Assembly: GCF_045679555.1 (NCBI RefSeq)
Contig: NC_092096.1
Span: forward strand, 27,660,364 to 27,724,363
Source: Salvelinus alpinus
Taxonomy: Eukaryota > Chordata > Actinopteri > Salmoniformes > Salmonidae
Direction: 5' to 3'
DNA length: 64,000 nt
Below the pieces are notes generated by a model. The model saw only the letters and a program-made list of their open reading frames with translations. It did not search any database and was not told where the DNA came from. The translations under genes were made by a program, and so were the position numbers. Positions 26,801 through 35,800 of the stretch are shown in pieces. How positions within the stretch are numbered: position 1 is the first letter of the stretch; the number at the start of each line of letters is the position of its first letter.

Positions 26801-29800
26801 AGAAGTTTCAGCTCTGGAGTGATTTATTGTATGCTATTAATTCCATTACAATTCCTGTCAATTGAATTAGATGTGTGTGTGTGTGTGTGTGTGTGTGTGT
26901 AGGTCTTTGCTGATACTGGATGACATCTGGGACAGCTCGGTGCTCAAGGCCTTTGACATCCAGTGTCGAGTACTGCTCACCACCCGAGACAGAAGCCTAG
27001 CCGACTGTGTCAGCGGTGTGTATGAGTAATAGCACTGATATTAATACTAACATTACTACAGTACTACTGATAATGATGACTTAATTTATAGAACACTTCT
27101 CAAACATTACACTCAATGCACCTGCTTAAACTGTGCATATGTGTGTGTGTGTGTGTGCACTCATGCGTGTGTGTGTCCAGGTTCTAAGTCTGAGGTGGCA
27201 GTGGAGAGTGGTCTGGAGGAGGGTCAGGCCTTGGAGATCCTCGCCCTGTATGTCAACGGGAAACCCCAGAGACTCCCAGAACAGGCCCGCAGCATTGTCC
27301 GAGAGTGCAAAGGTACATGCACACACGCAGACGGAGCTATAGTGTCAAAAGAAATTGTATTGAATGAAATGAAAATTCCATTCAGGTTTACAATAAAATG
27401 TCCATTTATTTCACATATTCAAGAGAAATAAAGTATTACATTTTCTTATGAATGATTTGGTAGGCATTATGTAGTGTGACCAAAAACATTGATAGAAATA
27501 ATGAACAGATCATGAATAGATAACAAGCAAATTAAACATAAAATAAAACAGCAACGTGGTATACTGTAATAGTATGGATAGAATATAGTACATTATACAG
27601 AGGGTGGGTCTAATCCTGAATGCTGATTGGTTAAAACAGCTGGTGTCTATTCCACAAGTTACCACCGGCTAAATCTATGACGTTAAAATGCCTATTTACT
27701 CTGTTGCATCTGACTGCGCATTCCACTGTGTCATCAGCCCAGCCAGGCAATTTATAAACTTGTTCTCCACTATAAAAAAGCATCTAGACATTCTCACATT
27801 TCTTTTAGACTAACATTTAGTTTTCAACAGCAGATATTTGTATAAACCTTCCCGTCTGTCTCCAACATTTGCAACATTGTTTCAATATTCAAATTCAATC
27901 TCCAGCTGTCCCATACATACAAATCATGAATCAGCTGGCATCATTTTTATGGATATATACACAGAAATGTACATTGAAAAAAGGTCAAACAAAACGAAGT
28001 GCAGCTAGTTTGCAGTCTTTCCAGCGTCAGTTTGAAGTGATTGTGTTAGCTGTGTTGTTGTCTCCTCTGAACGACAATGTCCTGACAAGAGAGCGCATTT
28101 TCTATGCCAGGAGAAATCGTGCATCATTAGCTCATTGTTATAGATGTATCCAAGTAAATGTCACTAGAAAACAGCTTAAACAAATGCAGCTACTGTTGTT
28201 GTTCATGCTGCACTGTTTGACGTGACTGTAAGTTTACCGTAGTTGGCTAGCTAACAAGCAAAGGATAAGAACGTTGCCAGCCAGTATGGCTATGGAACAT
28301 TTAGAAGGAACGACTGGTTGCGTCCATAGATGCATAACAAAAAGACTGAACGACTGGGTCGCGTCTCTGGCAACCAAACCGATTGGATGAACAAATTCAT
28401 CAATAAATTCAAAACTTTTTTAATGAAAATATGTCAATCATTATTTGAATATGTTGGTAACCCGTTGTATAAAAGTGATAATGCCCGAGAAGCAGGTGTT
28501 TGGAGGATATATTGGTTTGCTGCCTGAGACGATGCAAATATATCCTCCAAACACCTGCTTCTCGGGAATTATCATAGTTAATAATGGTTCATGATAAATT
28601 AATACAATGTGAGATGAGAAGGGAATCATTAATTATAGGTGGCACATGGCAACCGATCCACACACTAACTCCATGTGCTTCTATTCAAAGCTCTTCCTTA
28701 TTTTTCAGCTCCCTTTTTTCTCTCTTTCCGTCGTTCTCTTTCTTCTCTTCCTTGTGGAAGACTTTTCCATCTGGCTGCTCTTTCCATCTCAGTTCGAAGT
28801 TCCCAGTCATCCCATTGGCCTTCATTTTCTCCTTTATCTGAGGAACAGAACCAGGCTTTATGCCCTGAACACCTAAATTTACTGAATATTTATTTATTAA
28901 TACATTGTAGGATTAAAAATTTGCATTACAAATGTAATGATGGCAGCTATATGCTTTCATATGTAGGTACCTGCACTCTTACGGTTTGAAAGGTTTATCA
29001 TTACTTGGAGAACTCTCTTAACGTAAGGAGCAGTGGACTTTACTTGTTCACAGCGAGTTGGTCATTGTGAATAAGAATTCATTCTTAACCCTTTACGCTT
29101 TATCTTGGCCAGGTCGCAGTTGTAAATGAGAACTTGTTCTCAACTGGCCTACCTGGTTAAATAAAGGTGAAATAAATAAAAATAAAAACTTGTTTTTTTT
29201 ATCCTTTATGGATAAGGCATAATTGAAATGTTTCTAATACCATGGTAGAAATTGAAAGGGAACAATTAGGAGATTATGGGAAAATGATTTGACCTAAGTT
29301 GAGGGACACAACAGTTCACCTGATACAAGACTGAATCCAAACATTGCACTGTTGATTTTATGTGCATTTTACATTTACTGAACTTTTTATTTTTTTTAAA
29401 TTTTACCCCCCTTTTTCTCCCCAATTTCGTGGTATCCAATTGTTATTAATTACTATCTTGTCTCATCGCTACAACTTCCGTACGGGCTCGGGAGAGACGA
29501 AGGTCGAAAGCCATGCGTCCTCCGAAACACAACCCAACCAAGCCGCACTGCTTCTTAACACAGCGCGCATCCAACCCGTAAGCCAGCCGCACCAATGTGT
29601 CGGAGGAAACACCGTGCACCTGGCGACCTTGGTTAGCGTGCACTGCGCCCGGCCCGCCACAGGAGTCGCTGGTGCGCGATGGGACAAGGATATCCCTACC
29701 GGCCAAACCCTCCCTAACCCGGACGACGCTAGGCCAATTGTGCGTCGCCCCACGGACCTCCCGGTCGCGGCCGGCTGCGACAGAGCCTGGGCGCGAACCC

Positions 29801-32800: not shown

Positions 32801-35800
32801 ACTAAACTGAGTCTGTCCCTTACTATAGTAGTCTATGTCTGCCAGAGACCACTGCCACCTGGAATTCTGTCCCTTCTTCAGTCCTATCCACACTGCACAA
32901 TCATAATCGCTGTCTATAGTCAAGTGGTTCAGTCTGTTCATATCCTCCATGTTGCTTACGGTGGCCAGGTCCGTGTACTTCTCTCTGCAGTACCTCTGTG
33001 CTTCAGTCCAGTTTTTAGGGTCCGTTACATAGTGATACTGACAGGAGGATAGTGTGAAGAGCCCTGTGAAGAGGTGCATTGTCATCTCAAGTAACTGCCT
33101 CAAGGGCTGCAACATCAATAATATCTACCCTTCTACCCAGAGGCTGCAACATCAATAATATCTACCCTTCTACCCAGAAGCTGCAACATCAATAATATCT
33201 ACCCTTCTACCCAGAGGCTGCAACATCAATAATATCTACCCTTCTACCCAGAAGCTGCAACATCAATAATATCTACCCTTCTACCCAGAAGCTGCAACAT
33301 CAATAATATCTACCCTTCTACCCAGAAGCTGCAACATCAATAATATCTACCCTTCTACCCAGAAGCTGCAACATCAATAATATCTAGCCTTTTACCCAGA
33401 AGCTGCAACATCAATAATATCTACCCTTCTACCCAGAGGCTGCAACATCAATAATATCTACCCTTCTACCCAGAGGCTGCAACATCAATAATATCTACCC
33501 TTCTACCCAGAAGCTGCAACATCAATAATATCTACCCTTCTACCCAGAGGCTGCAACATCAATAATATCTACCCTTCTACCCAGAAGCTGCAACATCAAT
33601 AATATCTACCCTTCTACCCAGAGGCTGCAACATGAATAATATCTACCCTTCTACCCAGAAGCTGCAACATCAATAATATCTACCCTTCTACCCAGAGGCT
33701 GCAACATCAATAATATCTACCCTTCTACCCAGAGGCTGCAACATCAATAATATCTACCCTTCTACCCAGAGGCTGCAACATCAATAATATCTACCCTTCT
33801 ACCCAGAAGCTGCAACATCGATAATATCTACCCTTCTACCCAGAGGCTGCAACATCAATAATATCCACCCTTCTACCCAGAGGCTGCAACATCAATAATA
33901 TCTAGCCTTTTACCCAGAGGCTGCAACATCAATAATATCTACCCTTCTACCCAGAGGCTGCAACATCAATAATATCTACCCTTCTACCCAGAGGCTGCAA
34001 CATCAATAATATCTACCCTTCTACCCAGAAGCTGCAACATCAATAATATCTACCCTTCTACCCAGAGGCTGCACCATCAATAATATCTACCCTTCTACCC
34101 AGAAGCTGCAACATCAATAATATCTACCCTTCTACCCAGAAGCTGCAACATCAATAATATCTACCCTTCTACCCAGAGGCTGCAACATCAATAATATCTA
34201 CCCTTCTACCCAGAAGCTGCAACATCAATAATATCTAGCCTTTTACCCAGAAGCTGCAACATCAATAATATCTACCCTTCTACCCAGAGGCTGCAACATC
34301 AATAATATCTACCCTTCTACCCAGAGGCTGCAACATCAATAATATCTACCCTTCTACCCAGAAGCTGCAACATCAATAATATCTACCCTTCTACCCAGAG
34401 GCTGCAACATCAATAATATCTACCCTTCTACCCAGAAGCTGCAACATCAATAATATCTACCCTTCTACCCAGAGGCTGCAACATCAATAATATCTACCCT
34501 TCTACCCAGAAGCTGCAACATCAATAATATCTACCCTTCTACCCAGAGGCTGCAACATCAATAATATCTACCCTTCTACCCAGAGGCTGCAACATCAATA
34601 ATATCTACCCTTCTACCCAGAGGCTGCAACATCAATAATATCTACCCTTCTACCCAGAAGCTGCAACATCGATAATATCTACCCTTCTACCCAGAGGCTG
34701 CAACATCAATAATATCCACCCTTCTACCCAGAGGCTGCAACATCAATAATATCTAGCCTTTTACCCAGAGGCTGCAACATCAATAATATCTACCCTTCTA
34801 CCCAGAGGCTGCAACATCAATAATATCTACCCTTCTACCCAGAGGCTGCAATATCAATAGTCAAGTTCAGTTCTAAAAGTTCAGAGCAGAAAAAATCATA
34901 GTATTACTATTTCTTAAACTACTAATGTTCACATTTTAACTCGATATGCAGATTCTTCTTCTCAAGAGCTTGATGGTTCATTGATTCTTTGTGATAGTGT
35001 TGGGTTGGAACACAAATGTGCTGGCTGCAGATATGCAATCGTAAATACATTGTAATAAAATATATATATATTAAAAATATCATAATAAAACCACTGACCT
35101 AAGAAAAACACAATCAGCACTTTCTTCACCATGACAAAAGATTCATAAAAAATAAAGAAATATTTTGAGCGCGCTGTCTTCATCAGGTCTTGACCTGGTG
35201 TACTGTGGATCCTCTGTGTTCAGCTGCACCTTTCTCTGTAGGGCAGGCGCTATTTCAGAACAATGCGTTTCACAATACACAGTACACCTATTCATGTCTT
35301 TTTATAGCTTGCTTTGTATAGTGGTTATGTTCAGTTATCTCTTACCCGCAGGACATCAGTAAAATGAGTATGAGGCTGTGAGCCTGTTTTTGTTTGAGTC
35401 AAAAAACTGATAGTCAAATTAGTCTGAGCACAGACTTCAGAGAAAAGGAGCCCTTAATGCCTGCTGAAAGTTCTGTTAACCTTCAACGACTTGTAGAATT
35501 CCATTCTAAATCATGAAATTCAATTTCAATTAGTGAAATTTTAAATTCAATACATTAAATAATTAAATGTATCAAAACGAATAAATTCAATTTCTGTTAC
35601 ATCTCAACTCTTGGCACAATCAACCAGCCTACCTAAACCCCTCCTCTACCCTCCTCTCTTCCCCAGGCTCCCCCTTGGTGGTGTCCCTAATCGGGGCCCT
35701 GCTGCGGGAGTTCCCGGACCGCTGGGCCTACTACCTGCACACGCTCCAGCAGAAGAAGTTCAAGCGTATCCGTAAGTCGTCTTCGTATGACTACGATGCC

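Follow-up and report, generated by a model that had tools for sequence, protein, structure and literature searches.

The 64-kb window analysed here, the whole stretch of Salvelinus alpinus DNA under study, contains apaf1 and, within one of its introns, a C-type lectin gene on the opposite strand. The apaf1 exons ending at 27312 and starting at 35667 join into a sequence that is continuous in APAF1 (best E value for this query, 6e-55). Further apaf1 pieces fall in order on chain 3sfz: the CARD (residues 2-46), a later exon (456-496), and a WD40 exon (866-908). With the WD40 exon as the query, 360 sequences pass 1e-6; the first APAF1 row comes only after ten rows from other WD40 proteins, which is unsurprising because WD40 is a repeat. 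All of the lectin coding exons lie inside this single apaf1 intron. The antisense nesting claimed in an earlier note on this DNA is borne out by the GT-AG ends of the intron and by the continuity of its flanks. The features are collected in Table 1.

Table 1. Features of the lectin gene, its host intron, and associated repeats (positions in the window)
Feature	Position	Strand	Basis or remark
apaf1 intron enclosing the lectin gene, GT-AG	27313..35666	+	flanking exons continuous in APAF1
Coding portion of lectin exon 1 (initiator ATG and beginning of signal peptide)	35099..35132	-	joined ORF, hydropathy
Lectin exon 2 (remainder of signal peptide and CTLD1)	32683..33063	-	joined ORF, Pfam, PDB matches
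Lectin exon 3 (CTLD2)	32104..32433; end in earlier note, 32107	-	joined ORF, Pfam, donor score
Lectin exon 4 (start of the tail)	30353..30462	-	joined ORF
Lectin exon 5 (remaining charged tail and stop)	28685..28837	-	joined ORF
Candidate 17-residue N-terminal extension, in-frame upstream ATG at 35183	35133..35183	-	weak start context (GACCTGATGA)
TATA-box candidate TATAAAAAG	35298..35306	-	consensus match only
Poly(A)-signal candidate ATTAAA	28419..28424	-	sole match, four hexamers sought in 27900-28690
Inverted repeat, 38 bp, strong hairpin, presumed lectin 3' UTR	28476..28574	-	97% complementary
37-bp minisatellite, 47.4 copies, most of lectin intron 1	33105..34859	.	tandem-repeat search
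Dispersed repeat, lectin intron 4	29412..29832	.	83.6% identical to 22309-22686
Tc1-like transposon, lectin intron 3, 1542 bp	30473..32014	-	TA on both sides; ends placed by inspection of the sequence
Second copy of the same Tc1-like family	23930..25562		between apaf1 CARD exon and nucleotide-binding exon

Joining the five minus-strand segments gives a coding sequence of 1005 nt that specifies 334 amino acids, with a stop only at its end. The intron phases are 1,1,1,0, and all four introns are GT-AG. Random openness of 334 codons at 43% GC has a probability of ~2e-9. The segments, junction phases, GT-AG ends, and stop-free exons described previously were thus reproduced, with one likely adjustment. 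Donor sites were scored with a 5' splice-site matrix, which is a rough guide only, because the apaf1 donor of the host intron, taken as a yardstick, itself reaches just 1.31. On this matrix, the donors of exons 1, 2, and 4 score 2.98, 6.14, and 8.51, that of exon 4 (CAG/GTGAGT) being the best. The exon 3 donor at 32107 (ACG/GTAGTA) scores -1.99, versus +2.25 three nucleotides on (GTA/GTAAGT). Exon 3 therefore probably ends at 32104, with the frame kept; the protein would have 335 residues, and CYDARPP would become CYGNARPP. Candidate start codons were judged by the start-context rule. The start proposed earlier, at 35132, carries G at both -3 and +4. Upstream, at 35146, another ATG that is out of frame opens a short frame that overruns this start.

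In the joined protein, Pfam finds Lectin_C twice, with 110.2 bits in all; on single exons, exon 2 gives 63.6 and exon 3 gives 59.0 bits (cut-off 22.6). Four families appear at E values up to 1, with UL45, Xlink, and DUF4995 below their own cut-offs, and no hit at that level falls in the tail. A search of the PDB gave 106 distinct sequences passing 0.001; among the best 60, the top match is LY75 (8.5e-29 as a sum across several CTLDs), and P-selectin matches CTLD1 over ~120 residues (2.9e-12). The N-terminus is hydrophobic, with a KD19 value of 1.82 from residue 1, the maximum of windows starting up to residue 15. By hydropathy, no transmembrane-like stretch is seen, the KD19 windows starting after residue 20 being at or below 0.53. 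The protein contains 12 cysteines. Of its six N-glycosylation sequons, CTLD2 carries five, and the charged tail of 87 residues includes 22 K/R and 17 D/E. The signal peptide, paired CTLDs, and charged tail proposed earlier agree with the hydropathy, the two Pfam domains, and the tail composition.

Alignment of CTLD1 with P-selectin shows QPG for EPN, NED retained, and WHD for WND, at what we take to be the calcium and sugar positions. CTLD1 is selectin-like; because QPG and WHD replace EPN and WND, its glycan binding, if any, is probably atypical or not via the usual calcium site. By eye, CTLD2 is without the calcium/sugar residue set, and it looks degenerate for sugar binding. Single-sequence AlphaFold models of the two CTLD exons, with mean pLDDT values of only 39.1 and 48.1, were set aside as evidence. 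A match of CTLD1 to a viral contig (one locus, 27 residues) was dismissed as chance, the contig being phage-like by eye from its ORFs.

The TATA candidate named in the earlier note is present, and its 9-mer occurs nowhere else on the window's minus strand. It is nonetheless weak evidence for a promoter, because the looser TATAWAWR is frequent on that strand, occurring three times in the apaf1 intron and 45 times in the whole window. At the other end of the gene, the RNA fold of 28420-28684 has a z score of -8.5, with none of 200 shuffles equally stable; the inverted repeat at 28476-28574 is possibly part of a dispersed element. The repeat in intron 4 is presumably SINE-like. The minisatellite of intron 1 carries TACCCAG 47 times on the apaf1 strand, and TTGCAG occurs 47 times in intron 1 on the lectin strand. 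The TACCCAG copies are acceptor-like decoys, because the pyrimidine run before one scored copy has 7 bases, versus 16 at the true apaf1 acceptor (35666).

Elsewhere in the window, a 20-bp minisatellite of 69 copies (10240-11614) lies upstream of apaf1. Downstream of the WD40 exon that apaf1 has at about 44.6 kb, a 65-bp tandem array of 47 copies (45814-48911) contains long open frames because of its tandem repetition. By eye, minus-strand ORFs at 14603-15996 resemble pieces of retroelement reverse transcriptase, and fragments at 37276-37692 and 58546-58911 resemble transposases of other Tc1/mariner families. Rfam gives no matches at gathering scores over the 64 kb.

The exon structure in the earlier note stands, but its account of the gene included neither the intron 1 minisatellite nor the Tc1-like transposon beside exon 4. 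The transposon is the new point of this analysis and the part worth an experiment. It has the same strand sense as the lectin, ends in CAGT and TAGT, and has outer inverted arms as well as inner arms ~190 bp inside; the repeat-arm coordinate of 30470 takes in the flanking TA, so the element itself ends at 30473. The available text of PMC2198921, which includes a table of salmonid Tc1 families, describes a long-ITR Tc1 subclass with a TA insertion site, a length of about 1.5-1.6 kb, long inverted repeats, and CAGT ends. The intron 3 element agrees in insertion site, length, and inverted repeats, and has CAGT at one end and TAGT at the other. It may date from around the split of Salmo, Oncorhynchus, and Salvelinus, because these genera are described as having parted at 94-95% similarity (PMC2198921, same portion).

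Only 10 bases, TA plus TGTGTTAG, separate the transposon from exon 4. When the flanks are joined to restore the empty site, the region from -45 to -12 contains an exact branch-point-like TCTTAAC at -24 and another with a mismatch. The exact motif now lies ~1.5 kb upstream of exon 4, displaced by the insertion, and the acceptor instead has three one-mismatch candidates (-27, -20, and -14), all in transposon-end sequence. An exact motif would occur in such a stretch by chance about once in eight (an estimate), and its displacement is no more than suggestive. Among the other lectin acceptors, exon 3 has an exact motif, exon 2 a one-mismatch motif only, and exon 5 neither, so a site can pass as an acceptor without an exact motif. 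The longest pyrimidine run at exon 4 is 4, versus 2 in the empty site, so the insertion did not clearly worsen the tract; the runs at exons 2, 3, and 5 are 7, 5, and 6. Skipping of exon 4 would give a 293-residue protein with a different, still-open tail of 46 residues, for which exon 5 is read in a changed frame. Because the transposon ends 10 bases away and the branch-point-like motif has been displaced, exon 4 may be spliced using transposon sequence, or it may be skipped, at least in part. A more specific proposal, which we offer tentatively as a one-in-several prospect, is that exon 4 now takes its branch point and pyrimidine tract from a co-opted Tc1 inverted repeat; the transposon end would then set the share of the standard versus the 46-residue tail, and the tail would differ between salmonid species with and without the insertion. 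If the transposon end does serve as the exon 4 acceptor, the gene would offer an example, datable and open to testing, of an immune-type gene whose splicing was remodelled by a DNA transposon.

The second Tc1 copy provides a rough clock for judging whether the reading frame is kept by selection. Across 1541 aligned sites the two copies show 99 differences (6.4%), together with 17 indels, 14 of which are gaps in the lectin-intron copy. All but one of the 17 (16) are 20 bases or shorter, and 14 of those 16 are frameshifting. Assuming even divergence from one master, an assumption that the uneven share of gaps speaks against, each copy carries ~3.4% substitutions. Half of the Tc1 divergence was placed on the lectin coding sequence in a simulation of neutral drift, with 20,000 runs per setting and survival counted on the ORF rather than on splice sites. 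The ORF survived in 0.2% of runs with all small indels at an even share, in 1.6% with half as many, and in 17% with substitutions only. These values, which vary with the assumed indel rate and come from a two-copy clock, make neutral survival of the lectin ORF unlikely.

The same data bear on the rival that fares best, a recently silenced gene whose coding parts are still open and whose expression was stopped by the Tc1 insertion or by loss of the promoter. The displacement of TCTTAAC from -24 is consistent with such silencing, and the substitution-only setting (0.17) leaves neutrality unrejected. However, survival is rare once indels are counted, the transposon end offers its own branch-point candidates, and skipping of exon 4 keeps the reading frame open. 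We consider silencing improbable, although it deserves more weight than the other rivals. A shorter gene, in which exons 4 and 5 are foreign and the protein ends shortly past CTLD2, would explain the lack of a Pfam match in the tail and the compromised exon 4 acceptor. Yet both exons are in phase, the exon 4 donor is the best of the gene, and the tail resembles, we believe, those of other teleost lectins; this alternative seems quite unlikely.

The position of the lectin inside apaf1 is ordinary by vertebrate standards. According to the available text of PMC8467205, 4.3-8.7% of the protein-coding genes of seven vertebrates belong to nested structures. The opposite-strand form is the commonest in human and mouse, accounting among simple nested pairs for 220 of 296 in human and 193 of 248 in mouse. 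Gene overlap is put at 5-14% of vertebrate genes in PMC2151771. In the opposite-strand nested genes these sources describe, the internal gene lies wholly in a host intron, as here, and we see no difference in kind. Among the titles and abstract openings listed in our literature searches on nested genes, apaf1, and fish lectins, none deals with a lectin gene inside apaf1. The earlier note had taken the pairing of an immune-type lectin with an apoptosis gene to raise the question of transcriptional interference between the two. The intact-looking antisense lectin stands, but with opposite-strand nesting so common, neither a special pairing nor interference as its consequence is supported, and on this comparison the pairing of apoptosis and immunity would require no special explanation. 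No sequence signs of interference between lectin and apaf1 were found in the window. Interference is still a fair general question, because PMC8467205, in the same text, reads the opposite-strand bias as a trace of selection against it. An antisense regulator, with selection maintaining interference of lectin transcription with apaf1 transcription or splicing, would suit the opposed units, the nearby lectin promoter candidate, and the tendency, in human and mouse, of an internal gene and its external partner to be expressed across tissues with unequal breadth, as interference predicts (PMC8467205, available text). It is nevertheless very improbable, given that the coding exons do not overlap, that coding capacity unneeded for interference has been kept, and that in mammals no significant difference in expression divergence separates nested from unnested pairs (same text).

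On the explanation we judge probable, the five exons encode a dual-CTLD lectin of the teleost kind that is soluble and secreted; the gene runs antisense to apaf1 within the host intron and has a Tc1 element at exon 4. This explanation builds on the observed open frame, intron phases, domains, nesting, and transposon position. The lectin would have a promoter of its own, ~360 bp away from the next apaf1 exon, and would be transcribed, spliced, and secreted via a classical signal peptide, and the sequence leading up to exon 4 would now derive mostly from the intron 3 insertion. The protein would probably act in pattern recognition or adhesion; an immune role and a glycan ligand are likewise presumed. 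An open frame alone is no proof of expression. Against this explanation, the pyrimidine run at the exon 4 acceptor is shorter than at any of the other three lectin acceptors, the exon 3 donor originally proposed is poor, and the tail is without a Pfam match at E up to 1. The gene model is sound, and it provides an added family member and a clean model for annotation.

Comparison with known lectins places the protein more closely. The selectins carry EGF and sushi domains after the CTLD. CTLD1 aligns with P-, L-, and E-selectin over ~120 residues (best E 2.9e-12, among the best 60 of 106 sequences), but membership was rejected because neither EGF nor sushi is among the four Pfam families at E up to 1, and no transmembrane-like stretch is present. 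Members of the mannose receptor family have eight or more CTLDs and a transmembrane segment. Several CTLDs of LY75 (DEC-205), which with MRC1 belongs to this family, match the lectin (among the best 60 of 106 sequences); this family was also rejected, since the protein has only two CTLDs by Pfam and no transmembrane-like window after residue 20. Steelhead genes that bear the annotation name macrophage mannose receptor 1-like are reported, in the available text of PMC7901748, to go up or down after parasite exposure. Soluble dual-CTLD proteins are described from Fugu (the F1 group) and zebrafish (cDNAs CAE17649-CAE17651), with at least one CTLD retaining the calcium/sugar residues (PMC514892, available portion). 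That portion makes no mention of a location in apaf1 or of a Tc1 element at exon 4. In the present lectin, by contrast, neither CTLD combines WND with a complete EPN or QPD motif, so that the calcium/sugar residues are only partly kept, which counts against our assignment. What they have in common is two CTLDs, the absence of a transmembrane segment (here by hydropathy, together with a signal-peptide-like N-terminus), a likeness to CTLDs of the mannose receptor type, and occurrence in fish. Because this domain plan agrees with that of the Fugu and zebrafish proteins, the lectin is most likely a further member of the known teleost soluble dual-CTLD kind.
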